Below, piece by piece: positions 16,681-37,126 of a stretch of 41,835 nucleotides of DNA. Source of the stretch: Eggerthellaceae bacterium (GTDB lineage Bacteria; Actinomycetota; Coriobacteriia; Coriobacteriales; Eggerthellaceae); NCBI GenBank assembly GCA_022644775.1, contig JALCHN010000014.1, positions 1 to 41,835 on the forward strand, written 5' to 3'. Each line of letters begins with the position of its first letter. The first letter of the stretch is position 1. Both the position numbers and the translations under genes were made by a program. The notes under the pieces were generated by a model. The model was given only the letters and a program-made list of their open reading frames with translations. It was not told the DNA's origin and ran no database searches.

Positions 16681-17079
16681 ATGGGTTATTCCATTGGGTG
16701 CGACGTGATGAGGGAGTCGCGCATCGATTGGTCGTCGTTGTCGGGCGACGACCCGTTCGTTCGGTCTAATTTCAGCTCCGAGGAATGGAGCGCGACATGC
16801 GCTTCGAGCGATCCAGCCCATGCCCGGGCGGCCTCGTTCGCAGCCAAGGAAGCTGTGTTCAAATGCCTGCACCTCGACGACGATTGCGTGCAGGAGCTCG
16901 AAGCGAAGCTTAACAGGCGCATTACCTTCGCCGACCTCGTCGTCGTTCGCGATCGCGCCTGGCCTGCGGTCGCGATAGCCGCCGATCTCTCCCAGGCCCT
17001 CGGCGTCCAGTCGGTCTCTCTCTCCCTTTCGAACGAAGACGGCCTCATCTTCGCTACCGCCCTTGTCGAATGGGTCTAA
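16681..17079 (+). CDS. AcpS-like 4'-phosphopantetheinyl transferase
   Basis: Expected to transfer phosphopantetheine from CoA to a carrier-protein serine. The 132-residue length fits the AcpS family. Both metal-binding positions are present: Asp8 in IGCDVM (usually GTDI) and Glu57 in SFAAKEAVFKCL. The C-terminal beta strand VSLSLSNEDGLIFATALVEW fits the usual hVSISH region, but His is replaced by Asn. The central part is divergent, so this is probably a specialised enzyme rather than the housekeeping AcpS. An acyl carrier protein is encoded 1.8 kb away, beyond the regulator. The stop overlaps that of the convergent PucR gene by 4 bases. Confidence 0.78.
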   Translation: MGYSIGCDVMRESRIDWSSLSGDDPFVRSNFSSEEWSATCASSDPAHARAASFAAKEAVFKCLHLDDDCVQELEAKLNRRITFADLVVVRDRAWPAVAIAADLSQALGVQSVSLSLSNEDGLIFATALVEWV

Positions 17080-18650
17080 TCAAACAAGGGAAGACCGCTG
17101 TCGATGATGCTGAGCGTGAAGGCTGCATCGAGATTGTCATGCCCTGAATAGGGATCGAGATCGAAGAGCTCCTTCATCTTGTTCAGGCGGTAGAAATACG
17201 TATTGCGGTGAATGTTGAGCTTTTCGGAAGCGTGCTTCACGTTTCCCATGCCCTGAAGGTACTCCCTGAGCGTGTCGAGGTAGGCGGTGTGGTGCGTTTC
17301 GTCATGTCGCTTCATCGCGAGAATCCGTTTGTCGAGGAGCGCGTTCACATCGTTGGTTTTCGCGAATTGGATTGCGATAATCTCCGATTTATGGTGCCAC
17401 GTGAAATGCACGGTTGTGCTGAGATGACGTCCTTCGGCAAGCCCAAGAGCCATTCGGTAAGAATCGGCGCAGCGAAGGATGTTTTCGAACGGGTCTCCGA
17501 AGACCGCGGTAAGGGAGTTTCTCTCTATCGTCTCTCTGAGTTCGTTATTGCTAGCAATGCGTTGTTCAAGTTGCCGGTAATAGGGAAACCCCTCTGACTC
17601 TTCCTTGTCGAGGGGAATAAGCACTACGACGATTCCATTGCGCGTTATCCAGGCGCAGTGGGGAACCGCTTTCGAAACGAGTCGTCCAAGATGGGCGTTG
17701 AAGCCTGGCGTGATAAAGGATTCGCTGCCTGAAACCACGCCAGCGGCATACACTCCCGTCGCGTCGAATCCCGCTTCGGACAAGAGCTTTTCTGCGCTCT
17801 TTGAATCGGTGAACTTTCTGTCGATGAGATCGTTGAGAATGCTGGCACCTTGGTTGGCGTAGCTGGTGACGTGGTCGTTTCTGTCAACGATGATGCCGGC
17901 GAGCGCACCTGCGTAGTCGATAAGTTCTAGATCGTAGGCCGTGAAGGGGTGGTCGCTGCCCATAACGTCGAATCGGCCGAGTTCGAGATCTTTGTATCGG
18001 ATGATCGACGTTACCCATTCGATCTCACTGTCTTTTCGGGGGTTCTTCGAGATGTAGGGGCCTTGAATCTCTCGCGCCTTTTCTACGAGCCGGTCCTCCC
18101 GCATTTGGGCGATGTTTTCCTCCAAGGTGTAGCCATTGGCGATTTGGGGGCTGAAATCGTCGCGGTTTGCTTCAAAGTCGCCCGCGGTCGCGAGTATGCG
18201 CTCGTCGGTATCGGCGACGATGATGGGGTTTCCCAGGATGGGAAAAACCCCATGAACGAATTGCTGAATGTTGTAGGTCTGCCTGAAGATATCGAACATG
18301 CGGCTTTTGGATGTTTCCAGCATCGCTTCGTTCTTGATGAGCATGAGAAAGCGTCGTTGAACTTCATAGAAGCTGTAGCGGCTTGTGCAGACAATGACGT
18401 TGGGTGAAGGATGCGCGAGACGTTTGGGAATCTGCGTGTTGACGACCACGAGCAATAAGCCGTTGCGGTGCGTTTTCACCACATTGGAGAATCCGGCTTC
18501 TCCCACCAAGGCGATGCTCCTCGTTGAAACGGCCTGATCGGTGCGGCTCGAGGCAAGCTGCACGCACACGGCATTTTCGTTGAGTAGTGATTGGTTGTAC
18601 AGGGCTATGTCTTGTGCGCCAAGGGCGAAAAGGATGCTGCGGATCTTCAT
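17076..18650 (-). CDS. PucR/CdaR-type transcriptional regulator
   Basis: A 524-residue protein with a C-terminal PucR-type helix-turn-helix (about 465-515: YLQGMGNVKHASEKLNIHRN, then TYFYRLNKMKELF). A central region (about 260-440) resembles the GGDEF-like domain of this family, and the N-terminal half is a likely sensor domain. PucR proteins usually activate catabolic genes in response to the pathway substrate. It is transcribed divergently from the acyl carrier protein operon with a 233-bp shared control region, so that operon is the obvious target. Codon use is less GC-biased than in the his and phe genes, consistent with accessory DNA. Confidence 0.88.
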   Translation of the reverse strand: MKIRSILFALGAQDIALYNQSLLNENAVCVQLASSRTDQAVSTRSIALVGEAGFSNVVKTHRNGLLLVVVNTQIPKRLAHPSPNVIVCTSRYSFYEVQRRFLMLIKNEAMLETSKSRMFDIFRQTYNIQQFVHGVFPILGNPIIVADTDERILATAGDFEANRDDFSPQIANGYTLEENIAQMREDRLVEKAREIQGPYISKNPRKDSEIEWVTSIIRYKDLELGRFDVMGSDHPFTAYDLELIDYAGALAGIIVDRNDHVTSYANQGASILNDLIDRKFTDSKSAEKLLSEAGFDATGVYAAGVVSGSESFITPGFNAHLGRLVSKAVPHCAWITRNGIVVVLIPLDKEESEGFPYYRQLEQRIASNNELRETIERNSLTAVFGDPFENILRCADSYRMALGLAEGRHLSTTVHFTWHHKSEIIAIQFAKTNDVNALLDKRILAMKRHDETHHTAYLDTLREYLQGMGNVKHASEKLNIHRNTYFYRLNKMKELFDLDPYSGHDNLDAAFTLSIIDSGLPLFD

Positions 18651-18883
18651 CCGATGTGTCTCCTTACGCGATTACAACTGTGCAAATGCACAAAGTATGT
18701 TTTGAATTCTAAGGAAAATTCATAGCATTGAACATATGAATGGGGTCTTATTCATTCATAAAATCCCCCATGTCACTAGATATCAGGCGCAATCGAAGGG
18801 ATTATGCAGGTTCTGCATACGAATCTCTTCATGGGTAAACGCCCATATCTAAGCATTTGCACAGTACATGGAAAGGATTTGCA
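18651..18883. promoter_or_regulatory. Divergent control region between the PucR gene and the ACP operon
   Basis: Several dyads are visible: TGTGCA-AA-TGCACA (18679-18692); TATGAATG/CATTCATA (18735-18742 and 18753-18760); TATGCAG-GTT-CTGCATA (18803-18819); ATGGG-TAAACG-CCCAT (18831-18846). In addition CTGTGCAAATGC at 18678-18689 recurs inverted as GCATTTGCACAG at 18853-18864, one copy near each gene start. GGTAAACGC at 18834-18842 recurs upstream of the CoA-transferase operon. These are likely regulator sites. No unambiguous -35/-10 pair was found. Confidence 0.6.
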
Positions 18884-19132
18884 ATGGCAGACGAAAAGCA
18901 ACAGGTAATGGATGCCCTCTGCACCCGCGTTGCGTCTCTGTTCGGCGGGGAGGCTTCCGACTACACCGAAGACACGACGTTCGCGTCTCTCAACATCAAG
19001 TCGGTTCAGTATTCCCAAATCACCACCTACCTCGAGGACGAGTTCGACATCGAGGTTCCTTTCATGAAGTTCCGCCGCAAGAAGACCCTGGGCGAAGCCG
19101 CCGATTACGTCGTTGAGCTCATGGATATGTAA
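18884..19132 (+). CDS. Acyl carrier protein, atypical phosphopantetheine site
   Basis: An 82-residue four-helix carrier protein. Phosphopantetheine would attach at Ser40 in LNIKSVQYSQI, which aligns with the usual GADSLDTVEL of fatty-acid ACP. The Asp before Ser is Lys here, and the recognition-helix acidic residues are replaced. EDEFDIEVPF and the third-helix end TLGEAADYVVEL are typical. A basic cluster FRRKK (72-76 region of the canonical alignment) is unusual for an ACP. GGAAAGGATT precedes the ATG at 18884. The gene leads an operon with a CocE-type hydrolase 36 bases downstream, and an AcpS-like enzyme sits beyond the PucR gene. A specialised acyl-carrier role outside bulk fatty-acid synthesis is inferred. 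Confidence 0.85.
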   Translation: MADEKQQVMDALCTRVASLFGGEASDYTEDTTFASLNIKSVQYSQITTYLEDEFDIEVPFMKFRRKKTLGEAADYVVELMDM

Positions 19133-19168
19133 CTGCGTTCGCATCGATCGCGAGAAGAGGTTGTTTAA

Positions 19169-21043
19169 ATGATCGAACCGAATATCCCCGAAGAGTGGGT
19201 CCGCATCACCGACAAGAAACTTTCTGACCTTATCGCCATGACGGGCGAGAACAAGGACCAGGAAGAGTGTCCGATCTACTTCGACCCCGACACCGAAGGC
19301 TACATCTATCTGCGCAAGGAAGAGTTCGAGGGCGAAGAGATCATGGCGGCCTACCGCGTTGCGCGCCGCCCCAATGACGACCAGGAAGAAGTGGACCTTT
19401 CCACATCCGAAGACCCCATGGCCCGTATGGGCCAGGGTTTCTGCCCGCCCTTCAACCCGCATACCTACGAGGCTGCCCCTGGGGTGCTCTGCATGCAGGA
19501 CCAGGAAGTGGTCATGCGCGACGGCACGAAGATCTACTGCGACATCTATCGCCCGGATACCGAAACGCCGGTTCCGGTGATCGTGTCCTGGTCGTGGTTC
19601 GGCAAGCGCCCGGGAGACGGCATGAGCGAATGGCAGATTATGGGCGTACCGCCTAAAACGGTGTCCAAGTGCGCCAAGTTCGAATCTCCCGACCCCTTGT
19701 ACTGGTGCTACCAGGGCTATGCCGTCGCGAACGTCGACGTGCGCGGCGCCGGCCATTCCGAAGGAAACGTGCACATGTTCACCCATCAGGACCGCCAAGA
19801 CGGCTACGATTTCGTCGAGTGGGCGGCGGCGCAATCCTGGTGCAACGGAAATGTGGGCATGTCGGGTAACTCGGGCGTCGCGATGCACCAGTGGGGCATC
19901 GCCGCAGAATGCCCTCCGCATCTGAAGTGCATCGCCCCATGGGAATCGACCACCGACCTCTACCGTGAGAGCTTCTTCGAAGGCGGTATTCCCGCGCTTT
20001 CCTTCAACAAGTTCATCGCGGCGCAGGTTACCGGCCCCAACGGCGTTGACGACCAGGTGGCAATGGCCAAGATGTACCCGTTCATGAACGCCTACTGGGA
20101 CGACAAGCGCGCCGACTTCACCAAGGTGCGCATCCCCGTCTACCAGACCGCCGGTTGGAGCCATTTCCACCTGCCCGGCTCCTTCAACGCCTTCCGCAAG
20201 TGCAAGAGCCGCCTAAAGTGGATGCGCGCTCACCGCGATTTCGAATGGCCCGATACCTACAATCCGGAGAACCTCGAAGACCTCAAGCGCTTTTACGACC
20301 GCTATCTGAAGGGCATCCACAACGGATGGGAAATGACCCCGCGCGTCCGCCTCGACGTCATGGACGCCTATGATTGCGATTACCAGACGCAGCGAGCCGA
20401 GACGGCCTTCCCGATTCCCGAGCGCACACATTACGAGAAGCTCTACTTTGACGCGGCGGACATCACGCTGAAGACCGCCGCCCCTGCTGAAGCGGCGTCT
20501 GCCTCCTACGATCCTGCCGACGGGCAGCTTGAGTTCGATTACACCGTGCCCGAGGACATGGAAGTGACAGGCTATATGAACCTCCGCTTGTACGTGTCTT
20601 GCGAAGGCCACAATGAGATGGACCTTTTCGTGAACATCCAGAAGGCCGCTGCCGACGGCACTTGGATTCCCTGGTACACGCTCGACGAACCGCATCCGGG
20701 CGCGTGGGGCAAGTGCCGCGTCTCCCGCCGCGAGCTCGACGAGAAGCTATCCAAGAAGCACATCCCCATTCTGTCGAACACCCACGAGGACAAGCTCGAA
20801 GACGGTAAAGTCTATCCGGTCGACATCGCCATCGTCCCCACGAGCCGCGTCTACCACAAGGGTGAGCGCTTCCGCGTGCAGATCGCCGGCCGCTACATTC
20901 GCGAGGGCTGGTTCGAGCCGCTTGCATGGGACACCGACAACGGCGGAACGCACACGGTGCACACCGGTGGCGACACCGCGTCCTATATCGAGATTCCGGT
21001 TGTAGAGCCGCGCTACGTCGCCGGCGACTACGTCCGTCGCTAG
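19169..21043 (+). CDS. CocE/NonD-type alpha/beta hydrolase (S15-like)
   Basis: A 624-residue protein of the X-Pro peptidase / cocaine esterase / acylase superfamily, which cleaves esters or amides. After a 100-residue N-terminal extension come RDGTKIYCDIYRP, PVIVSWSWFGKRPGDG (oxyanion region), VDVRGAGHSEG, and the nucleophile elbow GMSGNSGVAM with Ser235 the likely nucleophile. A C-terminal jelly-roll domain (about 420-620) includes FRVQIAGRYI. The usual Asp in the GWYD or SWSD segment is not evident: the sequence reads GWSHFH (329-334). There is no signal peptide, so it is cytoplasmic. It could free the substrate acid from a conjugate, or act on acyl-ACP. A terminator separates it from buk. 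Confidence 0.85.
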   Translation: MIEPNIPEEWVRITDKKLSDLIAMTGENKDQEECPIYFDPDTEGYIYLRKEEFEGEEIMAAYRVARRPNDDQEEVDLSTSEDPMARMGQGFCPPFNPHTYEAAPGVLCMQDQEVVMRDGTKIYCDIYRPDTETPVPVIVSWSWFGKRPGDGMSEWQIMGVPPKTVSKCAKFESPDPLYWCYQGYAVANVDVRGAGHSEGNVHMFTHQDRQDGYDFVEWAAAQSWCNGNVGMSGNSGVAMHQWGIAAECPPHLKCIAPWESTTDLYRESFFEGGIPALSFNKFIAAQVTGPNGVDDQVAMAKMYPFMNAYWDDKRADFTKVRIPVYQTAGWSHFHLPGSFNAFRKCKSRLKWMRAHRDFEWPDTYNPENLEDLKRFYDRYLKGIHNGWEMTPRVRLDVMDAYDCDYQTQRAETAFPIPERTHYEKLYFDAADITLKTAAPAEAASASYDPADGQLEFDYTVPEDMEVTGYMNLRLYVSCEGHNEMDLFVNIQKAAADGTWIPWYTLDEPHPGAWGKCRVSRRELDEKLSKKHIPILSNTHEDKLEDGKVYPVDIAIVPTSRVYHKGERFRVQIAGRYIREGWFEPLAWDTDNGGTHTVHTGGDTASYIEIPVVEPRYVAGDYVRR

Positions 21044-21054
21044 TTTTGCATGCC

Positions 21055-21090: not shown

Positions 21091-21107
21091 CTAAGGGAGA
21101 GACTCGT

Positions 21108-22235
21108 ATGGAGGATAGCTACACAATTCTTACGCTCTCGCCAGGGTCGACGTCGACCAAGGTGGCCGTGTTCAGGAATACCCAACAGGTGTTCAAGTCG
21201 AACGTGCGCCACGATCCGGCGGAGCTCGCCCAGTTCGACCAGGCGAAAGAGCAGCTCGACTACCGCATTGCGGCCATCAAGAAGGAGCTCGCTGCGAACA
21301 ACATCGATCTTGCTGACGTCGATGCCTATTCGGGCTATTGCGGCGGCATGGGGCCGACGGTGGGCGGCATTTTCGCAATCGACGACACGGTGTGCGACCA
21401 CGTGCTCAACGGGGGCTTCAACCACCCGGCCATCCTCGGCGCCCCGATTCTGCACTCCTTCGCCCAGGCGCACGGAAAGCCTGCGTTTGCGGTTAACCAG
21501 CCCGATACCGACGAGCTTGCCGACGTGGCGCGCATCACCGGTTATCCGGGCGTCTACCGCAAAAGCCACGTGCATTGCCTGAACCAAAAGGAATGCGCGA
21601 TCCGCTACGCGACCGAAATCGGCCGGTCCTACGACGACGTGAACGTCATCGTCGCCCACGTGGGAGGCGGCCTTTCGGTTGCCGCCCACAACCACGGGCG
21701 CATGACCGACACCAATGACGTGCTTGAAGGCTCGGGCCCGTTCGCGCCCAACCGTTCAGGGGATGTTCCCCTCATGCCGGTTGTGAAGATGTGCTTCGAC
21801 GGTGCGCACGACTTGAAGGAAGTCAAAAACGTCATCGGGAAGACGGGCGGTCTCAAGGGCCTGCTCGGCACTGACGACGCGATGGAAATCGACAAGCGCA
21901 TCGACGCGGGCGACGATTGGGCCGATCTCGTGTTCGACGCGATGGCCTACCAGGTCGGCAAAGCCATCGGCGGCTTTGCCGCGGCTCTCGACGGAAACGT
22001 CGACGGCATTGTCCTTACTGGCGGCGTGAGCAACGACCAGCGGTTCGTTTCGAAGGTGGAACAGCACGTCAGCTGGATTGCCCCGGTGAAGGTCTACGGC
22101 GGCGATTTCGAGATGGAGGCCTTGGCGGCCGGCGCCCTGCGCGCCCTGCGCGGCGACGAGCGCGTCATGGCCTACACGGGGCAGCCTTCGTGGGATGGAT
22201 TCGCGATGGAGGGCGCGATTCCGGCCGTCGAGTAA
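21108..22235 (+). CDS. buk: Butyrate kinase family acyl-phosphate kinase
   Basis: Transfers phosphate from an acyl-phosphate to ADP, giving the free acid and ATP. The 375-residue length and signatures fit Buk rather than acetate kinase: TLSPGSTSTKVAVF at the N-terminus, DELADVARITGYPG, SHVHCLNQK, IVAHVGGGLSVAAHNHGR, EGSGPFAPNRSGDVP and LTGGVSNDQRF. It has the ASKHA fold. Acyl specificity could be butyryl, branched-chain or aryl-propionyl. A phosphotransacylase gene follows after one MFS gene, giving a Ptb/Buk-type route from acyl-CoA to ATP. AAGGGAGAG precedes the ATG. Confidence 0.9.
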   Translation: MEDSYTILTLSPGSTSTKVAVFRNTQQVFKSNVRHDPAELAQFDQAKEQLDYRIAAIKKELAANNIDLADVDAYSGYCGGMGPTVGGIFAIDDTVCDHVLNGGFNHPAILGAPILHSFAQAHGKPAFAVNQPDTDELADVARITGYPGVYRKSHVHCLNQKECAIRYATEIGRSYDDVNVIVAHVGGGLSVAAHNHGRMTDTNDVLEGSGPFAPNRSGDVPLMPVVKMCFDGAHDLKEVKNVIGKTGGLKGLLGTDDAMEIDKRIDAGDDWADLVFDAMAYQVGKAIGGFAAALDGNVDGIVLTGGVSNDQRFVSKVEQHVSWIAPVKVYGGDFEMEALAAGALRALRGDERVMAYTGQPSWDGFAMEGAIPAVE

Positions 22236-22374: not shown

Positions 22375-23697
22375 ATGGCACAGAAGGAACATACCTGGAT
22401 TCCCAACCTGGGTGCGAAAGGTTGGGGCATCACCTTTATCTGCATCTGCTTCTATTTCTTCTACAACTTCTGGAACAACGCCTCGAATACGCTCTTCGGC
22501 GTACTGACCGGCATGTATGGCTGGGAAACCACCCAGATGTCGTTCATCGTCACGCTCGGCGGCTGGTGCTCGCTGCTCGGCATCATCGTCTTCGGTGTAA
22601 TCGGCCGCAAAGTGGGCGCCAAGAACGTGAGCATCATCGGCCTTATCGGCAGCATCATCGCATTCGTGATTTTGGCCACCATGTCGAACTTCACCATGTT
22701 TGCGGTGGGAACCTTGCTGTTCTACGTCACGATGGTCGGTTACGCGGTCATCGGCCTGGGCAAGTTCGGGTCCGAATGGTTCCCTCACAAGAAGGGCGTG
22801 TTCATGGGCTTCGCGACCATGGGCATGACGATTTGCGGCGCTATGATCAACCCGGTCATCCTCGCCTGCGCCGGCTCTTCTGCGGGTATCAGCAGTCTGT
22901 TCTGGGGCCTAGCCGTTTTCTGCGCGATCGTCATCGTGCTCATCGCCGCCTTTGCGAAAAACACGCCTGAAGAGGCCGGTGCCTTCCCCGACAACGACCG
23001 CTCCATCACCCGCGAGGCTCTTATGGCCGAGGCCAAGGCGGCTGAAGAGTACAAGAAGAACAGCCCCTGGACGATTCAGAAAGTGCTGAAGACCAAGGAG
23101 ACCTGGCTTATCGGCATCGGCTGGGGCCTTTCGATGCTGGCTGCCTCCGGCGTGATGGCGCTGCTCGTTCCGACGCTGGCTTCCTACGACCATGACCCGG
23201 TGAGCATCGTTGCCCTGCTGGCGTCCATGTGGCCCATGGGCCTGCTCGGCCACTACCTGATCGGCGTTATCGACCAGAAGATCGGCACCAAGAAGACGAC
23301 GGTCTTTGTCGTCGTGCTGCAGATGGTCGACTTCCTGTGCATCGCCTTCTTCGGCGGCAATTACGCCGTGTGCGCGATCGCTATCGGCCTGCTCATGTTC
23401 GCCATCTCCGGCAACGCCAACGTCTGCATGTCCATGACCACGTCGGTGTTCGGCCGCGCCGACTTCGAAATGGCGTGGACCCCTATTCAGGTCATCTACA
23501 ACATCTGCAACTTCTCGGGCGTGACGGTCATCGCCCTCATCACGGCAAGCTTCGGGCCGCATGCCGTCATGATCGGCGCTGCGCTCATCTGCCTCGTCTC
23601 GCTCGTCTTCATTGGGCTGTGCAGCGACAAGCAGATCGGAAGCCAGATTGGTGCTGCCAAGCAGGGCGATGGCGCTCCTGCCGTGACGGCGCAATAA
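22375..23697 (+). CDS. MFS transporter (unit A)
   Basis: A 440-residue membrane protein with about 12 hydrophobic segments in two halves and a charged cytoplasmic loop (about 200-235) between them. The first helix is ICICFYFFYNFWNN. The loop between helices 2 and 3 has GVIGRKVGAKN, a form of the MFS motif A. It probably imports the substrate or exports the acid product; direction and substrate are unknown. The start is uncertain: ATG 22375 begins a normal MFS N-terminus, while ATG 22360 would add five residues (MRDHT); AAGGGA lies between 22354 and 22359. A similar but distinct MFS gene sits in unit B. Confidence 0.85.
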   Translation: MAQKEHTWIPNLGAKGWGITFICICFYFFYNFWNNASNTLFGVLTGMYGWETTQMSFIVTLGGWCSLLGIIVFGVIGRKVGAKNVSIIGLIGSIIAFVILATMSNFTMFAVGTLLFYVTMVGYAVIGLGKFGSEWFPHKKGVFMGFATMGMTICGAMINPVILACAGSSAGISSLFWGLAVFCAIVIVLIAAFAKNTPEEAGAFPDNDRSITREALMAEAKAAEEYKKNSPWTIQKVLKTKETWLIGIGWGLSMLAASGVMALLVPTLASYDHDPVSIVALLASMWPMGLLGHYLIGVIDQKIGTKKTTVFVVVLQMVDFLCIAFFGGNYAVCAIAIGLLMFAISGNANVCMSMTTSVFGRADFEMAWTPIQVIYNICNFSGVTVIALITASFGPHAVMIGAALICLVSLVFIGLCSDKQIGSQIGAAKQGDGAPAVTAQ

Positions 23698-23728
23698 CCA
23701 GCACGTACTCGAATAGGTGGGACACAAC

Positions 23729-24730
23729 ATGTCAGGACTTATCAACAAGCTGATTTCCGAGGCGAAGCAGCAACCTAAGAACATAGCCATTCCCGAGGCG
23801 ACCGATCGTGACACGCTTGTGCTTGCGCGCAGAATCGTCGACGAAGGCATGGGAACGCCCTTCCTTATCGGTGAGCGCGCCCAAATCGAAGAAGCAGCGC
23901 AGGACGCAGGCGTCTCGCTCGAGGGGATGCGTTTTGAAGATGTGGCCGATGAAAGTGCACGCTTCGAAGTGGTCGACCGCTACCTGCAAGAGCCGCGCAT
24001 GATCTCATTGAAAGGATGTCGCCGCCGTTCGAAGGACCCGCTCAACTACGCGATGATGCTCGAGGCCGTGGGCGACGTCGACTGCACCTTCGCCGGCCAT
24101 GTGGCTACCACTGGCGAGGTTCTCATGGCGGCTCAGAATTTCATCGGCTTGAAAGACGGCGTCGATACGCCTTCAATCATGGCGATTGTCGAAGTGGAGG
24201 GCTTTGACGGCCCCGAAGGCGACACAATCGTGTTTGCCGATTGCGGTTTGAACCCAGAACCCGATGCGGAAGCTCTTGCGTCCATCGCTATCGCGACCGC
24301 CGATCAAGCGGAAGCGGTTCTGGGATGGGACCCCCGCGTAGCGTTCCTCTCGTTCTCGACGAAGGGGTCGGGGACGTCCGCGAGCACTGAGACCATCGAA
24401 GCCGCTTTGAAAGTCGCCCGTGAACGCCGCTCCGATCTGAAGATCGACGGCGAGTTCCAGCTCGATGCGGCGATTGTCCCTCGGGTTGCCGAGCGCAAGG
24501 TGAAAGCTCCTTCCGACGTGGCGGGAAAGGCGAACGTGCTTATCTTCCCCGACCTCGATGCCGCAAACATCGCGATAAAGACCGTGCAGCTCTTTGCGCA
24601 TGGAAACGGCTACGGCCATACGCTTTCAGGTTTTAACAAGCCGGTGAGCGATTCGTCCCGCAATTCGTCGGTTGAAGAGATGTTGGGCGATATTGCCATG
24701 CTCGTGCTGGCGGCATCACGTTCCAAATAG
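23729..24730 (+). CDS. Phosphotransacylase (phosphate acetyl/butyryltransferase family)
   Basis: Exchanges CoA for phosphate on an acyl-CoA, giving acyl-phosphate. The 333-residue protein has the Pta/Ptb core: AIPEATDRDTLVLARRI, FLSFSTKGSG, DGEFQLDAAIVPRVAERK, DVAGKANVLIFPDLDAANI and KPVSDSSRNSSVEE. The sequence reads closer to Pta than to classical Ptb, but the neighbouring kinase is Buk-like, so the substrate is probably not simply acetyl-CoA. With Buk it would recover ATP from the product acyl-CoA of unit B. It follows the MFS gene by 31 bases. Confidence 0.87.
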   Translation: MSGLINKLISEAKQQPKNIAIPEATDRDTLVLARRIVDEGMGTPFLIGERAQIEEAAQDAGVSLEGMRFEDVADESARFEVVDRYLQEPRMISLKGCRRRSKDPLNYAMMLEAVGDVDCTFAGHVATTGEVLMAAQNFIGLKDGVDTPSIMAIVEVEGFDGPEGDTIVFADCGLNPEPDAEALASIAIATADQAEAVLGWDPRVAFLSFSTKGSGTSASTETIEAALKVARERRSDLKIDGEFQLDAAIVPRVAERKVKAPSDVAGKANVLIFPDLDAANIAIKTVQLFAHGNGYGHTLSGFNKPVSDSSRNSSVEEMLGDIAMLVLAASRSK

Positions 24731-25807: not shown

Positions 25808-26201
25808 ATGGACGATTCTTCAGGACCTCGTGTTGGCGGTGGTCATCAACACATCGGCGATGGCCCTTTCGGGCGCGCCGTTCAGCATTGCCTCGTGGTT
25901 CCCAGGGACGAGCACCGCCTTTTGCACGAACGTCCTCCTGCAGCTCGTATTGCCGGTGCCCGCTGCGGGTAGGGCGGCAAGCGGGTGTGTGGAAGGCCGT
26001 TCGTGGCGTCCCGTGCTTTCGGTGTTCGTTGAGAACCTGATTTTCGTGACGCTCATCTCTCTCACGATGGCCTATATGCAGACCGAAGGAGCGCACCTGT
26101 TGAAGGTGTGGCTTGCCACCTACCCTCAGCTCGTATGCATCGGCTACGCGACGTCGCTCGTGCTGTTCGCGGTAGGGAATAGACGGACGTTCAAGGGATA
26201 G
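25791..26201 (+). CDS. Small membrane protein of unknown function
   Basis: A 136-residue protein with about four hydrophobic segments: roughly 9-28 (QDLVLAVVINTSAMALSG), 40-58, 75-95 (VFVENLIFVTLISLTMAYM) and 107-128 (LVCIGYATSLVLFAV). The ATG lies inside the end of the esterase gene (17-base overlap), with GAGAGGGG upstream, so the two are translationally coupled. I recognise no family. It could assist one of the carriers or anchor an enzyme; neither is shown by the sequence. A terminator follows the gene. Confidence 0.7.
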   Translation: MCPWNKWTILQDLVLAVVINTSAMALSGAPFSIASWFPGTSTAFCTNVLLQLVLPVPAAGRAASGCVEGRSWRPVLSVFVENLIFVTLISLTMAYMQTEGAHLLKVWLATYPQLVCIGYATSLVLFAVGNRRTFKG

Positions 26202-28429: not shown

Positions 28430-28461
28430 CGAGGGGCTCGCGTGTTGGGGCGAGCCCCTCG
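28430..28461 (+). other. Intercistronic hairpin, CoA-transferase to dehydratase
   Basis: CGAGGGGCTCG (28430-28440) pairs perfectly with CGAGCCCCTCG (28451-28461) around 10 bases; no T-run follows. Similar hairpins occur at other junctions of this operon. Confidence 0.6.
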
Positions 28462-28507
28462 CTTCCCGAGCAGCCGGGTCGAGTTCGATCCGGGAGAAGG
28501 AGTTCAT

Positions 28508-29740: not shown

Positions 29741-30868
29741 ATGGCCGACATCAAAGAACTTCTGGAAGGCTTCACCGAAGTCGCCGACCATCCCAAGGCC
29801 GAACTCGATCGCCATATTGCCGCCGGCAAGAAGGTAATCGGCGTGGGTCCCTACTACGTCCTGGAAGAGCTCGTCTATGCTGCGGGTGCAATTCCCTTCG
29901 GCGTTTGGGGGCGCGTGGGAACGGCCTCGAAGGCGCGCGAGTACTTCCCGCCCTTCTATTGCTCGATTTGTCAGATGACGCTTGAAATGGGCTTGAACCA
30001 TGAGCTCGACAAGCTTTCGGGCATCATGCTCACAGCGCTGTGCGATACCCTGCGCGGAGCTTCGCAGAACTTCCGCGTTGGCGTCACGCAGGTTCCGATG
30101 ATTTTCGTAACCCAGCCGCAGAACCGCGCCACCGAAGCCGGCCGCCAGTACGCTATCGATTCCTACACCGAGTTGAAAACCACGGTGGGCGAGGCGTGCG
30201 ATACGATTATCGACGATGACAAGCTGGCGGAAGCCATCAAGCTCTATAACAACTGGCGCGCCGCGATGCGCACCTTCCTTGCTGAGGCGGCCAAGCACCC
30301 CGCGCTTGTGAGCGTTGCCCAACGTGCCGCGGTGGTCGATGCCGGCTACTACATGGACAAAGCCGAGCATTTGAAGAAGGTCGAGGCTCTCAACGAGCTC
30401 CTCGCTGCTCAGCCGGCCAGCACCGACGGATTCAAAAAGGTGGTGCTTTCGGGCGTCTACTATGACATCCCGGCGCTTACCCAGATTCTTGATGAGAACC
30501 ACTTCGCCGTGGTTGCCGACGACATAGCCAAGGAGTCCCGTGCCCTGCAGCTGCAGGTTTCCGAAGAGGGCGATCCTACCGTGGCGCTGGCAGAGGCTTT
30601 CTGCAAGGCGGGCAACGACTCGATTCTTTTCGACGAGAACAAGGGCCATGTCGCCCATGTGGCCGATCTGTACAAAGAATCGGGCGCCGATGGCGTGGTG
30701 CTGCTGCTTGCGAAGTTCTGCGACCCCGAAGAGTTCGATGCTCCGCATGTGGCCAAGGCCTGCAAGGACGCCGGTGCGCCGTTCGTTCAGATCGAAATCG
30801 ACCAGTCGACGGAAAGCTACGAACAGGCACGCACCCAGCTCGAAACGTTTGCCGACATCATCGGCTAG
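29741..30868 (+). CDS. 2-hydroxyacyl-CoA dehydratase, FldC/HadC-like subunit
   Basis: Second subunit of the dehydratase, also of the HgdB/BcrC family. The 375-residue length is typical. It has IGVGPYYVLEELVYAAGAIP near the N-terminus, cysteines in FYCSICQMTLEMG and ALCDTLRG for a second cluster, and a C-terminal lobe with LLLAKFCDPEEFDAPHV. The 3-base gap to the previous gene suggests coupled translation and a 1:1 complex. Substrate specificity cannot be read from the sequence. Confidence 0.9.
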   Translation: MADIKELLEGFTEVADHPKAELDRHIAAGKKVIGVGPYYVLEELVYAAGAIPFGVWGRVGTASKAREYFPPFYCSICQMTLEMGLNHELDKLSGIMLTALCDTLRGASQNFRVGVTQVPMIFVTQPQNRATEAGRQYAIDSYTELKTTVGEACDTIIDDDKLAEAIKLYNNWRAAMRTFLAEAAKHPALVSVAQRAAVVDAGYYMDKAEHLKKVEALNELLAAQPASTDGFKKVVLSGVYYDIPALTQILDENHFAVVADDIAKESRALQLQVSEEGDPTVALAEAFCKAGNDSILFDENKGHVAHVADLYKESGADGVVLLLAKFCDPEEFDAPHVAKACKDAGAPFVQIEIDQSTESYEQARTQLETFADIIG

Positions 30869-30879: not shown

Positions 30880-30906
30880 CGGGCCCGCGCCGCATGTGCG
30901 GGCCCG
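30880..30906 (+). other. Intercistronic hairpin after the dehydratase
   Basis: CGGGCCCGC (30880-30888) pairs perfectly with GCGGGCCCG (30898-30906) around 9 bases; only TTC follows, so at most weak termination. Confidence 0.55.
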
Positions 30907-30931
30907 GTTCACTCAGGGAAGGAGAGAGACT

Positions 30932-32206
30932 ATGAGTGAAACGATCCAGAAGAAAGGCGGATTCCATTACGCCTTTTTGATTGTTGCCTCGTGCATCGTC
31001 ATCACGTGCATCCCCTGCGCGTTGGTGCTCAGTTGCGCAGGCATCTACTTCAAGCCTGTTGCCACCTATTTCCAGGTGTCGACGCCTGAATTCACCCTGT
31101 ACTTCAGTATTTTGAACATCGCAATGATGATTATGCTGCCTATTGCGGGCAAGCTGATGAGCAAGATAGACCTGCGGGCCATTTTGAGCATTTGCGCGGC
31201 GATCGACGGCGTTACCTATTTGGCCATGTCCCAGTTCTCTGCTGTATGGCAGTTCTATATCGCCGGCGTGCTGCTGGGCATCGGTACCGCTCCGCTCATT
31301 TACCTGTCGGTTCCTACGTTGATCAATGCATGGTGCAAGAAGAAGGTCGGCTTCTTCATCGGCCTGTGCATGGCGTTCACCGGCATCGGCGGCGTGATTT
31401 TCAACCCGGTAGGCACCGCGTTCATCAATTCCGGGGCCGATGGCTGGCGCACCGGCTATTTGGTGTTCGGCATCATCATGCTCGTCGTGACGCTTCCCTT
31501 TACCCTCTTCGTCGTGCGCTCTAAGCCTTCGGACAAGGGGCTTGAGCCCTACGGTGCCGAAGAGGCCGTGTCTCAAGAAGGCGCGAAGTCTTCCGAGCCG
31601 GTGCTCGGCGTCTCTGCAAGCAAAGCCATGAAGACTTCCGCGTTCTTCGCGGTGGCTGCCTTCTGCTTCCTCATCACCGTTAACCAGACCGTGTACCAAT
31701 TCCTTGCCTCTTACTGCCAGTCCTTCACGGGCTCCGACATCGCGGCTGCCGCCGGCATCGTGGCGAGCGCTTGCATGGCCGGTCAGGCTATCGGCAAGGT
31801 TATCCTTGGCGCGGTGAACGACAAGTCGATCAAACTCGGCATGTTCATGGGCATTGGTTGCGGCATCATCGGCGTGCTGCTCATGTGGCTGCTCCCCTTC
31901 GCGGTTGCGGTTCTTATGGTCGGCGCGTTCCTGTTCGGATTCGTGTACGCCTGCACCACGGTGGAAACCCCGCTTCTTACCCGCGGCGTGTTCGGTTCCC
32001 GCGACTACACCAACATTTATTCCCGCGTTTCCATGGCGGGCACCCTTGGCGCCGTGATCGCCTCGGTGTTCTGGGGCTTCATCATCGATATGCCCAACGG
32101 CTTCTCGATCATGTTCATCCTGAGCATCGTGATTATGGTTCTGTCCGCTCTGCTTGGCGTCTTCGCCCTCAAACAGGGCAAGAAGCTCGAACAAACGGCT
32201 GAATAA
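30932..32206 (+). CDS. MFS transporter (unit B)
   Basis: A 424-residue protein with about 12 membrane segments, a first helix FLIVASCIVITCIPCALVL, motif A-like GKLMSKIDLR, and a central charged loop (about 195-230). The general look resembles the oxalate/formate antiporter-type MFS carriers, which often exchange a substrate acid for its product. It probably handles the 2-hydroxyacid or the reduced acid of the pathway; exchange is only an inference. AAGGAGAGAG precedes the ATG at 30932. Confidence 0.87.
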   Translation: MSETIQKKGGFHYAFLIVASCIVITCIPCALVLSCAGIYFKPVATYFQVSTPEFTLYFSILNIAMMIMLPIAGKLMSKIDLRAILSICAAIDGVTYLAMSQFSAVWQFYIAGVLLGIGTAPLIYLSVPTLINAWCKKKVGFFIGLCMAFTGIGGVIFNPVGTAFINSGADGWRTGYLVFGIIMLVVTLPFTLFVVRSKPSDKGLEPYGAEEAVSQEGAKSSEPVLGVSASKAMKTSAFFAVAAFCFLITVNQTVYQFLASYCQSFTGSDIAAAAGIVASACMAGQAIGKVILGAVNDKSIKLGMFMGIGCGIIGVLLMWLLPFAVAVLMVGAFLFGFVYACTTVETPLLTRGVFGSRDYTNIYSRVSMAGTLGAVIASVFWGFIIDMPNGFSIMFILSIVIMVLSALLGVFALKQGKKLEQTAE

Positions 32207-32346: not shown

Positions 32347-33510
32347 ATGGCAATTGACTTTTCCCTCACCGACGAGCAGGAGCTGCTCGTCGACAGCGTG
32401 AAGGAATTCTGCGAACGCAATCTCGATGAGCAGAAGATCAACGATATGTACGCGAACTACGGCATGTCCGACGAGCTTATCAAGGAATATCTTGATGCGG
32501 GCTTCGGTCTTATGGGCATTCCCGAAGAGCAGGGCGGCGTTCCGTGCGACCGCGTGACCCTCGGTATCCTTACCGAAGAGTTCGCCCATCATGCCGGTTG
32601 CGTGACTCCCTTCCTGAATAACACGCTCGCGATGCGCGATATGCTCGATTTCGGCAGCCCCGAGCAGGTCGAATTCTGCATGAGCCACTACATGGAAACG
32701 GGCAAGCCCATCTTCTCGCTGGGCTTTTCCGAACCGGGTGCCGGTTCCGATAACGCGTCGATGAGCTCGGTCACCGTCAAGCAGCCCGACGGCACCTACC
32801 TGCTCAATGGCCAGAAGACCTGGGTGACCGCCGGCGAAACGCTGCCTTACGTGCTCGTGGTCGCCAAGGACGAAGACCCGTCGCCCAAGAACCGCACGAT
32901 GAGCATGTGGCTGGTCCCCAAGGACACCGAAGGCCTTACCACGGCGCCTCTGCACAAGATCGGTCAGCAGATCATGCCGTTCTGCGAGATGTATTTCGAC
33001 GACGTGAAGCTCACTGAAGATATGCGCGTGGGCGAACCCGGCCGCGGTTTCTTCAACCTCATGAAGAACTTCGAGATGGAGCGTTGCCTGATCATCGCCC
33101 AGAGCGTGGGCCTCGCCCAGGCTGCCATGGACGATGCTGCCGCCTACGCGAGCGAGCGCGAGACGTTTGGCAAGCCCATCGGCGACTATCAGCTCATCCA
33201 GCTCAAGCTGGTCGAGATGGAAACGGCTATTCAGAACACGCGCAACATGCTCTACCACACGCTGTGGAAGATGGATAATGACGAGAGCGTGCGCATCGAT
33301 TCGGCGCTGCTGAAGCGCTACGGCGCCATGAACTGCGAAAAAGTGGCCAGCGAGGCCATGCAGATCTATGCGGGTCTTGGCTTCACGACCGAAACGCGTT
33401 TGGGTCGTCTGTGGAAGGACCTGCGTGGCAACGAAATCGCTGGCGGCACCGACGAGATCATGGTCTACATCGCGGGTCGTCAGCTCGTGAAGCAGTACAA
33501 GCGTAACTAA
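32347..33510 (+). CDS. Acyl-CoA dehydrogenase / enoyl-CoA reductase 1
   Basis: FAD enzyme of the acyl-CoA dehydrogenase family, 387 residues. In this setting it most likely works in the reductive direction, enoyl-CoA to acyl-CoA, as AcdA or CaiA do. Signatures are FGLMGIPEEQGG, FSEPGAGSDNASM (FAD and substrate loop), LNGQKTWVTAG, RETFGKPIGDYQLIQ, and catalytic Glu370 in AGGTDEIMVY, as in CaiA. No etfAB genes are in the window, so the electron donor must be encoded elsewhere. AAAGGA precedes the ATG at 32347. Confidence 0.92.
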   Translation: MAIDFSLTDEQELLVDSVKEFCERNLDEQKINDMYANYGMSDELIKEYLDAGFGLMGIPEEQGGVPCDRVTLGILTEEFAHHAGCVTPFLNNTLAMRDMLDFGSPEQVEFCMSHYMETGKPIFSLGFSEPGAGSDNASMSSVTVKQPDGTYLLNGQKTWVTAGETLPYVLVVAKDEDPSPKNRTMSMWLVPKDTEGLTTAPLHKIGQQIMPFCEMYFDDVKLTEDMRVGEPGRGFFNLMKNFEMERCLIIAQSVGLAQAAMDDAAAYASERETFGKPIGDYQLIQLKLVEMETAIQNTRNMLYHTLWKMDNDESVRIDSALLKRYGAMNCEKVASEAMQIYAGLGFTTETRLGRLWKDLRGNEIAGGTDEIMVYIAGRQLVKQYKRN

Positions 33511-33531
33511 TCGAGCAGTGAGGAGCGTTCC

Positions 33532-34299
33532 ATGTTCTACTTGGGAATGGACGTAGGTTCTACTGCGACCAAATGCATTGTGGTGGATGGCTCCGGAACG
33601 ATTGTGGGCAAGGGGCTTGCGCGCGGAGGGGCGGGGACGAAGGCTCCCGCTGCCGCCGAAGCCGAGGCCCTTGCCCAAGCTCAGGTGAGCGAGAGCGAAA
33701 TCGAGACGATTTGCGCAACGGGCTACGGTCGCCATTTGTTCGACCAGGCCAATATGGAGAAGTCAGAGCTGTCCTGCCATGCGAAGGGCGCTTCGAGGTT
33801 GTTTCCCGGCGTGAGGACGGTAATCGATATCGGCGGCCAGGACGCCAAGGTGCTGCGTCTTGGCGTCGGCGGTTCGCTTGAGAACTTCGCGATGAACGAC
33901 AAGTGCGCTGCTGGTACGGGGCGCTTCCTCGACGTGATGGCGGGCGTGTTCGGTTGCGACGTGTCCGAGCTTTCCGACTACGACCGCCAGTCCGACCATT
34001 CGGTGTCCATTTCGTCTACGTGCACGGTGTTTGCCGAATCTGAGGTCATTTCAAAGCTTGCATCGGGTGAATCCATCTACGATGTCGCCGCCGGCGTTCA
34101 CGACTCGGTGGTAGACCGCACGGCTGGCCTGGCGAATCGACTGGGCATCGTGCCTCCCGTCGCGATGACGGGCGGAGTCGCTCTTAACGACGCGCTTCGC
34201 GAGCGGCTTGAGAAAAAGATCGGCTACCCGATTCAAACGTCCGAACTCGCCCAGTTCAACGGGGCGTTCGGAGCAGCTATCTACGCGCTTGAAGCGTAG
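33532..34299 (+). CDS. 2-hydroxyacyl-CoA dehydratase activator (HgdC/FldI-like ATPase)
   Basis: Homodimeric [4Fe-4S] protein that uses ATP to inject one electron into the dehydratase. The 255-residue ASKHA-fold protein has GMDVGSTATKCIVVD (phosphate 1), IDIGGQDAKVLRL, MTGGVALND, and the two cluster cysteines Cys125 (NDKCAAGTGRFLDVMA) and Cys164 (SSTCTVFAESEVISKLA), as in HgdC. It starts 21 bases after the dehydrogenase. Its presence confirms that the two upstream subunits are an ATP-activated dehydratase. Confidence 0.93.
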   Translation: MFYLGMDVGSTATKCIVVDGSGTIVGKGLARGGAGTKAPAAAEAEALAQAQVSESEIETICATGYGRHLFDQANMEKSELSCHAKGASRLFPGVRTVIDIGGQDAKVLRLGVGGSLENFAMNDKCAAGTGRFLDVMAGVFGCDVSELSDYDRQSDHSVSISSTCTVFAESEVISKLASGESIYDVAAGVHDSVVDRTAGLANRLGIVPPVAMTGGVALNDALRERLEKKIGYPIQTSELAQFNGAFGAAIYALEA

Positions 34300-34325
34300 C
34301 GACGGTCGTTTCGGCTATGCGAGAA

Positions 34326-34356
34326 CGAGGTACGGCGAGGGAGAAGCCGTACCTCG
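34326..34356 (+). other. Intercistronic hairpin before the ligase ribosome site
   Basis: CGAGGTACGGC (34326-34336) pairs perfectly with GCCGTACCTCG (34346-34356) around 9 bases. It ends just before the ribosome site (AGGTAGGGA) of the ligase, so it could affect ligase translation or RNA processing. Confidence 0.6.
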
Positions 34357-34377
34357 CGAAGGTAGGGAGTGTGCAGC

Positions 34378-35961
34378 GTGTCGAAAAGTGGGATACGGCT
34401 CTACAACGAGTCTAGGGAGCATGTGCCCCAGGAGTCGTTGATGAGCTTGGTGGAGGCCGGGTATCGGTATTCGCCGGGCAAGGCGATGATCGTTTGCGGC
34501 GATCGGACCCTCACCTACGGTGAAGCGTTCGTGCAAGCACGCTCGCTTGCCTGGTATATACGTTTCCAGCTTCATATTGATTACGGATGCACGGCGCTCG
34601 TGTCCATGCCGAATCGCGTTGAGTTCCCCGTTATCGTCGCGGCACTGCAGATGATGGGCATTCGCATCTGCATGGTGTCGAATACCGGCGGTCGCAATGA
34701 TTTTGCCCATGCCGTCGATTTGGTGAAGCCCGACTTGGCCATCGTGGCGCTCTCCCGAGCGGTCGACCACCTGCGGGCCCTCGATGTTGCGTTTCCCGTT
34801 CTCACGATTGACGATGGCGCAGCTGGCGGCGATGAGACTATCGAGCATGCCATGCGCATGGTCCCGCGCGACCAGCGGCTTGAGATTACTGCCTGGTCGG
34901 GCGAAGACACGGCGATCGTGCTCTTTTCGTCTGGGTCGACGGGCAAGCCGAAAGCGATCGCCAATCGGTCTTCTTCGTTTAAATCGAATGCTTATAAGCT
35001 GTCTTCTGCGCTTGGGATCAATCGAGACGACGTGCTCTACGTTCCTGTTCCCTTCGCGCACGTCTACGGAATCATCGGCATGTACGCCGCACTGCTCCAG
35101 GGTGCCACGATGGTCACGATATCGAAGTACTATCCTGAAGCTTCGCTTTCTGCGCAAGCAAACTCACGCGTGACGGTGTACTTCGGCGTGACGACGATGT
35201 ACATGCGCGAGATGCGCGTGAATGCAAACGACGGATGGGACCTTTCCTCGCTTCGGCTCGGCATGCTCGCTGGGGCGCCTTGTCCGGAATCGGCGATTCG
35301 GGAATTCGAAACGCGTTATGGGTGCACGCTTGTGCAGTCCTACGGTATGACCGAAACGGCAGCGACGCTTACCGTGAACAGCGTCAACGATCCGCTGCCC
35401 GTTCGTGCCAAGAGCGTGGGGGTTCCCATTCCGGGTGTCCGCATAGAACTGGCGCCTGAAACGGGGGAGATTCTCGTGAAGACGCCTGCTCTCATGATCG
35501 GCATTGTGAGCGGGGAAGGGTACAAATTAGTCGATGTCGACGAGGACGGCTGGCTGCATTCGGGCGATATCGGTCGTTTTGACGATGAGGGGCGACTCTA
35601 CATCGTGGGGCGCATTAAGGACATTATCATTCGCGGGGGCATCAACGTGTTCCCCAAGGAGGTCGAGTCGGTGTACCAGGGGCATCCCGATATCGAGATG
35701 TGCTGTCTCGTGGGGTATCCCGATGCGGAGCTCGGCGAACGCACCTGCTTATGCGTCATCCCGAAAACCGGACATACAATCAACGCTCGTGCGATGCGCG
35801 ACTACGCGAAGGGCGTGCTCGAAAAGTGCATGCTCCCCGACACGGTGATGCCCTTTGATACGTTTCCGCAGCTCGCGAATGGTAAAATCGACAAAAAAGC
35901 GCTTCGCGCGCAGGTAGAGGATGCGATGAGCAACATTAAGCATCCGGGTCTACCTTCATAG
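34378..35961 (+). CDS. Acyl-CoA ligase (AMP-forming, ANL superfamily)
   Basis: Activates a carboxylic acid to its CoA thioester with ATP through an acyl-adenylate. The 527-residue protein has the phosphate loop SSGSTGKPKA (184-193), SYGMTETAAT, the hinge region GWLHSGDIGRFDDEGRLYIV and GRIKDIIIRGG, and adenylation Lys503 in LANGKIDKKALR. The start is most likely the GTG at 34378, 10 bases after AGGTAGGGA; a GTG at 34369 is too close to that site. Like FldL in the fld cluster, it may prime the cycle so that the CoA-transferase has a CoA donor. Confidence 0.9.
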   Translation: MSKSGIRLYNESREHVPQESLMSLVEAGYRYSPGKAMIVCGDRTLTYGEAFVQARSLAWYIRFQLHIDYGCTALVSMPNRVEFPVIVAALQMMGIRICMVSNTGGRNDFAHAVDLVKPDLAIVALSRAVDHLRALDVAFPVLTIDDGAAGGDETIEHAMRMVPRDQRLEITAWSGEDTAIVLFSSGSTGKPKAIANRSSSFKSNAYKLSSALGINRDDVLYVPVPFAHVYGIIGMYAALLQGATMVTISKYYPEASLSAQANSRVTVYFGVTTMYMREMRVNANDGWDLSSLRLGMLAGAPCPESAIREFETRYGCTLVQSYGMTETAATLTVNSVNDPLPVRAKSVGVPIPGVRIELAPETGEILVKTPALMIGIVSGEGYKLVDVDEDGWLHSGDIGRFDDEGRLYIVGRIKDIIIRGGINVFPKEVESVYQGHPDIEMCCLVGYPDAELGERTCLCVIPKTGHTINARAMRDYAKGVLEKCMLPDTVMPFDTFPQLANGKIDKKALRAQVEDAMSNIKHPGLPS

Positions 35962-35974
35962 CAGGAATCGAGGC

Positions 35975-37126
35975 ATGGTTGTGGAATACACGGATAGCCA
36001 GAAGCGCATCATCGAGCAGGTCGATGAATTTTGCGATAGCCATGTGACCGAGGAACAGGTGCGGCAGTGGGTCTCATTCGGGGACGTGCCCCTGTCTTTC
36101 AATGACGACTTGCGCCAAACGAAACTGTGGGACTACATTCTGCCGCCTGTACTCGGCGGCGTGGATGATCGACACGTCGAGCGCGCGACCATCATCGAAC
36201 GTTTCATGTATCGGGCGGGAGCGACCCTGCCTCTGCTTTCTGACATGATGTCGTTCGCCTTCCTTTCGACGATGCGCGACAAATCGCAGAAGGAAATCCT
36301 CGAAGAACTTACCACGCGCAATCGCCTTGCGTTCTCCATCGCGTTCACCGAATCGTCTTCCGGCAGCACGTCGGGAACTGTTGGAACCACCGTTTCCTGG
36401 AGCGGAACCGCAGCGCATCTCGACGGCGAGAAAACGTTCGTGAGCGGCGGGCAGTTCATGCCCGAAGTGCTGGTACTCGCAAACGATCCTATCTTCGGTG
36501 CAAAAGATGGCGGTCTGTCTCTTTGGCTTGTGCCCGTCGATGCTCCCGGCGTTCAGACGTTTCCCATCGATGCGGTGGGCCAGCAGATGTTGTGTCCCGC
36601 TGTGGTGTCTTTCGAGGGCGTGAAGCTCGATCTCGATTGGCAGATCCAGACCGAGGGCAAGCTTGATTCTATGCTCAAGCGCATGTACGAACTGGGTCGC
36701 TTGTTCGTGTCCGCTTCGAGTTTGGGCCTCGCCGAAGCGGCGCTCGACGATGCCGTGAATTACGCCGGTCAGCGCATGGTGAAAGGTCGCTTGCTTTCGT
36801 CTCTGCCCGATATTCAGCAAAAGATAGTTGAGATGGAAGCGCGCGTGCGCGAGATGCAGATGTTCGTCTACGATGCGGCGAGCGTAATGGGCGATGGAGA
36901 CGAAACGCATCTGAATGTGGCGCTTATGAAGCACGAAGTGCCTGCAAAGGCTGTGCAGGTGGCATCCGATGCGATGCAGATTTTCGGTGCTCGCGGGTAC
37001 ACGAGCGCGGTTCGCGCTGGGCGTATCTGGCGCGATTGCCGTGGCAATCAGGTTGCGCAGGGCACCGATGAAGTGATGACGCACATCGCGTCCAAGTTCA
37101 TCGTGAAGAAATACCGAGATCGGTAG
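35975..37126 (+). CDS. Acyl-CoA dehydrogenase 2 (divergent paralogue)
   Basis: A 383-residue acyl-CoA dehydrogenase family protein, clearly related to the first (32347-33510) but diverged. The glycine-rich loop FSEPGAGSD becomes FTESSSGSTSG, GIPEEQGG becomes ILPPVLGG, and RETFGKPIGD becomes RMVKGRLLSSLPD. The position of the catalytic base is kept as Glu366 in QGTDEVM. It could form a hetero-oligomer with the first, act on another chain length, or be a second reductase. The gene starts 13 bases after the ligase and ends unit B. Confidence 0.87.
   Translation: MVVEYTDSQKRIIEQVDEFCDSHVTEEQVRQWVSFGDVPLSFNDDLRQTKLWDYILPPVLGGVDDRHVERATIIERFMYRAGATLPLLSDMMSFAFLSTMRDKSQKEILEELTTRNRLAFSIAFTESSSGSTSGTVGTTVSWSGTAAHLDGEKTFVSGGQFMPEVLVLANDPIFGAKDGGLSLWLVPVDAPGVQTFPIDAVGQQMLCPAVVSFEGVKLDLDWQIQTEGKLDSMLKRMYELGRLFVSASSLGLAEAALDDAVNYAGQRMVKGRLLSSLPDIQQKIVEMEARVREMQMFVYDAASVMGDGDETHLNVALMKHEVPAKAVQVASDAMQIFGARGYTSAVRAGRIWRDCRGNQVAQGTDEVMTHIASKFIVKKYRDR

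Follow-up and report, generated by a model that had tools for sequence, protein, structure and literature searches.

Dehydratases acting on 2-hydroxyisocaproyl-CoA and phenyllactyl-CoA are known from Clostridioides difficile and Clostridium sporogenes (PMC11574389), and cleavage of a C-acylphenol by phloretin hydrolase (Phy) feeds the PGR-DPGC-dehydrogenase-TAL pathway (PMC10470551, PMC11170127). Here we analyse a stretch of 41,835 nucleotides (62% GC) from contig JALCHN010000014.1 of a gut-type anaerobe of the Eggerthellaceae, called the window in the following, whose host genome (G000) has 1.96 Mb. It contains an island of two adjoining gene sets, unit A (16681-26201) and unit B (26255-37126). 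Judged by its sequence relationships, unit B is of a recognised kind, a Had/Fld-like 2-hydroxyacyl-CoA dehydratase/reductase operon. Unit A is centred on a dedicated acyl carrier protein (ACP). Catabolic ACP enzymes in which such a protein holds the acyl group are known, namely citrate lyase and malonate decarboxylase, and hydrolysis of an ester or C-acyl bond normally wastes the bond energy. We consider it about an even chance (roughly 50%) that the island joins cleavage with ATP formation via the ACP (unit A) to the reduction of a 2-hydroxy acid (unit B), a chemistry that we infer from the gene families present.

According to this reading an imported ester or C-acyl conjugate would be attacked by a CocE/NonD enzyme at Ser235, and the acyl group would be taken not by water but by the phosphopantetheine thiol of the ACP, which AcpS would have charged. 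A divergent phosphotransacylase (Pta) would then convert acyl-ACP and phosphate to acyl phosphate, from which butyrate kinase (Buk) would form ATP and the free acid, so that the bond energy would be saved at the cleavage step. The main ground for this proposal is the fusion of ACP to the hydrolase together with the presence of AcpS, Pta and Buk. The freed or an imported 2-hydroxy acid would be activated by the CoA-transferase or the ligase of unit B, the radical iron-sulfur (Fe-S) dehydratase and its activator would dehydrate the CoA ester, and acyl-CoA dehydrogenases would reduce the resulting enoyl-CoA with Etf encoded elsewhere; the pathway would act as an electron sink. Uptake of the substrate and export of the reduced acid would fall to the carriers.

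The core of unit A, which consists of ACP, CocE/NonD hydrolase, Pta and Buk and often includes AcpS and PucR, forms a separate module that is conserved across phyla. It occurs in Coriobacteriales, Lachnospiraceae, Oscillospiraceae, Bifidobacterium and Chloroflexota. With the hydrolase alone as query, more than 500 related stretches were obtained from 84,980 species genomes, and the locus counts given here refer to the best 80, which span Lachnospiraceae, Oscillospiraceae, Bifidobacterium simiarum, Nocardia, Chloroflexota and others (L labels denote compared stretches, G labels denote compared genomes). An ACP is encoded at a distance of at most 1 kb from the hydrolase in 69 of the 80 loci, and Pta and Buk are each present in 55, though many contigs are short. 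This linkage is not an effect of locus selection, because the query was the hydrolase alone. Moreover, 21 of 75 hydrolase open reading frames (ORFs) are fused to one (n=7) or two (n=14) ACP domains by Ala/Pro-rich linkers. Bifidobacterium simiarum (L104) has the full gene set of unit A, and Slackia equolifaciens (L174) the minimal set ACP-CocE-AcpS-Pta-Buk-MFS. Within the order a hydrolase homologue was found in 43 of 299 genomes, with identities of up to 83% in Atopobiaceae. The gene set is apparently undescribed though widespread; literature searches, contexts of CocE, flavonoids and substrate-level phosphorylation included, revealed no paper joining ACP, butyrate kinase and hydrolase. We gave up the view that unit A serves the 2-hydroxyacid pathway specifically, as most carriers of the module do not have unit B.

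The preliminary description of this DNA had regarded units A and B as one system. What stands of this is a physical and evolutionary linkage, not an obligate pair. In the three genomes of the family which have both units (the window genome, G114 and G216) A and B always lie close together, and the chance of such closeness in G114 and G216, with the window left out, is about 7e-5. G114, from another genus, has a complete unit B set followed by a unit A set, the reverse of the window, with a weakly matched PucR-like gene. In G216, from a third genus, both units are about 10 kb apart within a larger catabolic cluster. The cocE genes of G114 and G216 belong to a different clade than that of the window, therefore the two arrangements probably have separate origins. 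One co-directional run in a rumen Eubacterium (L125) comprises genes for MFS, CoA-transferase, activator, hadB, hadC, dehydrogenase, etfBA, an ACP-CocE fusion, Pta, Buk and two reductases. Finally, the same-genus genome G001 contains a scar (C9:306776-306940) in which CGCGC marks the junction between 14 codons from the start of acpS and the final codons of acd2. It corresponds to window positions 16681-16722 and 37013-37116 and sits between aldA and a second, divergent unit B; most simply, an ancestral island whose ends matched those of the island in the window was lost in a single deletion. Taken together, the linkage in G114, G216 and L125 and the scar in G001 are good evidence for a functional, non-obligatory link between A and B.

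The alternative which survives best, though we regard it as unlikely, is that A and B are unrelated catabolic cassettes which met by chance in a hotspot of gene gain. Most genomes carry one unit only and show no enrichment of the pair, the cluster in G216 is part of a wider catabolic one, and both units have an atypical GC content at third codon positions (0.67-0.84, compared to 0.85-0.92 in the flanking his, aldA and pheST genes), which sets the stretch 16681-37126 apart from its flanks. However, a chance meeting fits poorly with the proximity in every family genome that has both units, with the different cocE clade in G114 and G216, with the opposite order in G114 and with the co-directional run in L125. 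An insertion hotspot linked to pheST was considered as the cause of the adjacency as well; no pheS was found in the approximately 58 kb of G114 examined.

The genes of unit A have the order acpS, divergent PucR-type regulator, acp, cocE, buk, MFS carrier, pta, second alpha/beta hydrolase and small membrane protein:

16681..17079, plus strand: AcpS-type 4'-phosphopantetheinyl transferase (PF01648, 35.4 bits, cut-off 25); AcpS-like gene in 33 of the 80 loci
17076..18650, minus strand: PucR/CdaR-type regulator, divergent from the ACP gene (PF13556, PF17853); PucR-like gene in 49 of the 80 loci
18884..19132, plus strand: dedicated ACP, attachment Ser40 (PF00550, 29.7 bits, cut-off 20.8)
19169..21043, plus strand: CocE/NonD (S15/PepX_C) serine hydrolase, proposed ACP acyltransferase, nucleophile Ser235 (TIGR00976, 230 bits, cut-off 66)
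21108..22235, plus strand: butyrate kinase, Buk (TIGR02707, 385 bits, cut-off 289)
22375..23697, plus strand: MFS carrier, conjugated bile salt / oxalate-formate / lactate-like (PF07690; NF038246, 76 bits, below the cut-off of 400); start codon inferred
23717..24730, plus strand: divergent phosphotransacylase, Pta (PF01515, 268 bits), below the NCBIfam cut-offs for Pta and Ptb
24830..25807, plus strand: second alpha/beta hydrolase, HSL type with GFSAG motif (PF07859, 162 bits); homologues in 21 of the 80 loci
25791..26201, plus strand: small membrane protein of 136 aa, without Pfam or NCBIfam match; kept with the module in 8 of the 80 loci

The ACP of the window comprises a PP-binding domain with the attachment serine, which is invariant across 16 aligned ACPs, and its modification is predicted, a 4'-phosphopantetheinyl transferase gene being part of the same unit. 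Comparison of the hydrolase with PDB 3ib3 and cocaine esterase (CocE) indicates a conserved nucleophile, with Ser235 aligning to Ser117 of the latter. The Pta reaches 235 bits with the NCBIfam Pta profile (cut-off 311) and 85 bits with that of Ptb (cut-off 410). Other ACP-linked Ptas likewise score below both cut-offs, whereas a separate canonical Pta of the host genome exceeds the Pta cut-off with 380 bits; this contrast, drawn from profile scores alone, would agree with a specificity of the unit A enzyme for the carrier. As to variants of the hydrolase, tandem ACP-ACP-CocE fusions of 813-841 aa are found in Lachnospiraceae and relatives (L128, L130, L143 and others). There is also a clade of close CocE homologues without detected nearby ACP, Pta and Buk (L145, L148, L150, L152-L154), and in L145, L148 and L150 the homologue is followed by genes for an FAD reductase and an Fe-S flavoprotein.

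A search of the host genome for ACPs and Ptas revealed a second ACP-Pta-Buk set on contig C36 (L192:9896-17171). It encodes a thiolase, a DUF35-like protein, ACP, Pta, Buk and an MFS carrier, and is preceded by a probable Sfp-type phosphopantetheinyl transferase; the DUF35-like protein was assigned by eye from its zinc-ribbon sequence and has no NCBIfam match. Several members of Olsenella and relatives (L105-L107, L121) have the thiolase-DUF35 set next to the hydrolase module. That one ACP-Pta-Buk back end is served by two different acyl-cleaving front ends supports a general scheme. We tentatively propose, at somewhat less than even odds, a widespread and undescribed mode of energy conservation in which a serine hydrolase (or thiolase-DUF35) would load a dedicated and often fused ACP, from which a carrier-specific Pta and Buk would generate ATP; in some anaerobes this would be coupled to a pathway that dehydrates the released 2-hydroxy acid by a radical mechanism and reduces it.

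Unit B is composed of a divergent TetR-like regulator, class III CoA-transferase, hadB, hadC, MFS carrier, acd1, activator, ligase and acd2:

26255..26935, minus strand: TetR-like regulator (PF00440, 20.5 bits, below the 24-bit cut-off; N-terminal match to TIGR02366, 36.8 bits, below cut-off)
27167..28408, plus strand: class III CoA-transferase (PF02515, 299 bits)
28442..29737, plus strand: HadB-like 2-hydroxyacyl-CoA dehydratase subunit, HGD-D (PDB 3o3m_A, E=1.5e-119)
29741..30868, plus strand: HadC-like 2-hydroxyacyl-CoA dehydratase subunit, HGD-D (PDB 3o3m_B, E=1.1e-80; three cysteines aligned)
30896..32206, plus strand: MFS carrier (PF07690, 132 bits)
32353..33510, plus strand: acyl-CoA dehydrogenase/reductase 1, acd1 (NF008997, 469 bits, cut-off 537; PDB 6fah, E=8e-55); start inferred from the profile match
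33532..34299, plus strand: dehydratase activator, HadI/FldI type (TIGR00241, 243 bits, cut-off 125.4)
34369..35961, plus strand: AMP-forming acyl-CoA ligase (PF00501, 193 bits)
35975..37126, plus strand: acyl-CoA dehydrogenase/reductase 2, acd2, end of the island (PF00441)

All genes named by the preliminary description were recovered by profile matches at the positions it had given. The matches of HadB and HadC to the solved 2-hydroxyisocaproyl-CoA dehydratase of C. difficile type cover nearly their whole length, and C111, C146 and C372 of the HadB-like subunit align with C84, C117 and C346 of 3o3m_A, which we take to be ligands of the Fe-S cluster. Both subunits miss the curated NCBIfam cut-offs (HadB with 474 of 750 bits, HadC with 323 of 700 bits), therefore a substrate other than isocaproyl-CoA is possible for unit B. 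Relatives of the dehydrogenases include, among others, the caffeyl-CoA reductase CarC (PDB 6fah). Acd1 and acd2 have AGGTDE and AQGTDE where CarC has YEGT, the usual position of the catalytic Glu; PDB 4rm7 is similar (ADGTDE). No etf gene lies within the window, and the Etf genes of the host genome are found on contigs C9 and C25. The cluster is kept in G001, G006, G009 and G057 and partly in others, the gene set and most of its order being common to several genera; in relatives, too, the TetR-like gene is divergent from the CoA-transferase. Further HGD-D and activator-like genes outside unit B are encoded on contig C21 of the host genome (L195), where they adjoin an aminotransferase-V/cysteine-desulfurase-like gene.

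Clues to the substrate come from the neighbours of homologous modules. Genes for an SDR, a cyclase-family protein, a 3-hydroxyacyl-CoA dehydrogenase and BKACE lie next to the module in L177 and L176, those for SDR and cyclase in L162; all four are families of the phloroglucinol pathway of Clostridium scatologenes (PMC10470551). The Gfo/Idh and xylose-isomerase-like genes beside the module in L180 may be C-deglycosylation genes. Often a flavoprotein is encoded downstream, which is nearest to vinyl phenol reductase but below its cut-off. Catenibacillus converts flavonoids to 3,4-dihydroxyphenyllactate (PMC11170127), a 2-hydroxy acid that a system of the unit B type could reduce. From these neighbourhoods a phenolic conjugate would be the best guess for the substrate class, although this guess is rather more probably wrong than right. 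Thermodynamically, aryl esters and C-acylphenols release enough energy for one ATP, alkyl esters hardly so.

Several observations weigh against the proposed joint system. Transfer of the acyl group to ACP is deduced from gene linkage and fusion, and the hydrolase might instead act as a thioesterase or acylate another molecule. Its His355 is invariant and aligned with a His of 3ib3; for the canonical Asp of cocaine esterase no aligned position could be established. No ACP was detected in 11 of the 80 loci, so some homologues may be plain hydrolases. No homologue of BKACE (triacetate acetoacetate-lyase) was found in the host genome; degradation of phloroglucinol by the organism of the window was therefore dropped, and that route is probably not used here. 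Finally, as genome content A and B are independent. The preliminary description had looked to their co-occurrence in related genomes, and the counts in 138 genomes of the family do not bear this out: 14 contain a hadB homologue, 15 the hydrolase and three both, which is not above chance (expected 1.5, P = 0.18). Each unit works without the other.

The same earlier account had assumed a hydrolytic entry and had placed Pta and Buk at the exit of unit B. The hydrolases would then simply hydrolyse conjugates, unit B would reduce the 2-hydroxy acid, and Pta and Buk would turn the reduced acyl-CoA into acid and ATP, with the ACP as a side player. All genes for this are present, and in fermenting organisms acyl-CoA is a common substrate of Pta and Buk. 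However, genomes that lack unit B still keep Pta and Buk together with ACP and CocE, which makes it more likely that ATP is formed from an acyl group on the ACP when the conjugate is cleaved at entry; in many homologues ACP is fused to CocE; and the unit B clusters of G001, G006 and G009 lack a unit A cocE, where their CoA-transferase could release the product. We therefore regard the ATP-recovering exit as improbable, and on the same ground the hydrolytic entry is probably wrong, acyl transfer to ACP fitting better. Weakest is the proposal that unit A runs in reverse, with Buk and Pta spending ATP to make acyl-ACP and the CocE-type enzyme acylating an acceptor or serving as thioesterase of a small biosynthetic pathway. 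In its favour, kinase and transacylase reactions are reversible, and fusions of ACP to an alpha/beta-hydrolase look like carrier-thioesterase arrangements. Against it, the minimal operons have no recognised enzymes for condensation or for making an acceptor, MFS carriers are common and the neighbours include phloroglucinol-degradation genes and reductases.

Some features of the window lie outside these questions. Long overlapping ORFs on the opposite strand (e.g. 27095-32194, minus) were taken as shadow ORFs of high-GC DNA. Scans of the window for Rfam families and tRNAs gave no match. At 97-1977 a single ORF combines a HisZ-type (histidyl-tRNA synthetase-like) domain with HisG, apparently a fused ATP phosphoribosyltransferase.

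Should the acyl group indeed end up on the ACP, an anaerobe that lives on conjugated compounds of plants or hosts could gain ATP from the cleavage itself and use the matching 2-hydroxy acid as electron acceptor. The gut and rumen genera with the module include Slackia, Olsenella, Flavonifractor, Lachnospiraceae and Bifidobacterium simiarum, hence the module could explain growth support by polyphenol-type conjugates. It would also give a function to many proteins annotated as 'CocE/NonD family hydrolase' and to orphan ACPs.

In comparison to the known systems, unit B shares with the Had and Fld clusters of C. difficile and C. sporogenes the two-subunit Fe-S dehydratase, the activator, the class III CoA-transferase, the acyl-CoA dehydrogenase and the ligase. 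It differs from them in having no etf in the operon, two acyl-CoA dehydrogenases, an MFS carrier and a TetR-like regulator of its own, and in being joined to unit A. The preliminary description knew of no described fld/had cluster with ACP, phosphopantetheinyl transferase, hydrolases and Ptb/Buk-type genes, and our literature search found no such combination either. With Pta-AckA and Ptb-Buk unit A has in common a phosphotransacylase and an acid kinase making ATP from acyl phosphate, but its divergent Pta is tied to a dedicated ACP, AcpS and a serine hydrolase and not to a CoA-dependent pathway. With citrate lyase and malonate decarboxylase it would share the dedicated carrier protein in a catabolic cleavage; unlike there, a CocE-type hydrolase would cleave, AcpS is not of the CitG/CitX type and the acyl group would be converted to acyl phosphate. 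Among the annotated unit A genes there are no lyase or transferase subunits of these two enzymes and no CitG/MdcB-type genes, the homologous loci not having been searched systematically. L177 and L176 have the gene families of the PGR-DPGC-dehydrogenase-TAL pathway next to the module; Phy itself, a hydrolase of unrelated type, has no ACP, Pta or Buk, and the window genome, in contrast to the Phy/phloroglucinol system, has no TAL. The unit A hydrolase shares sequence family and nucleophile serine with CocE/NonD esterases and with the alpha-amino acid ester hydrolases (S15), which are known acyl-transfer catalysts, and its closest solved relative, 3ib3, carries no name more specific than CocE/NonD family hydrolase. 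What distinguishes the unit A type of hydrolase from these esterases is its ACP partner or its fused ACP domains.

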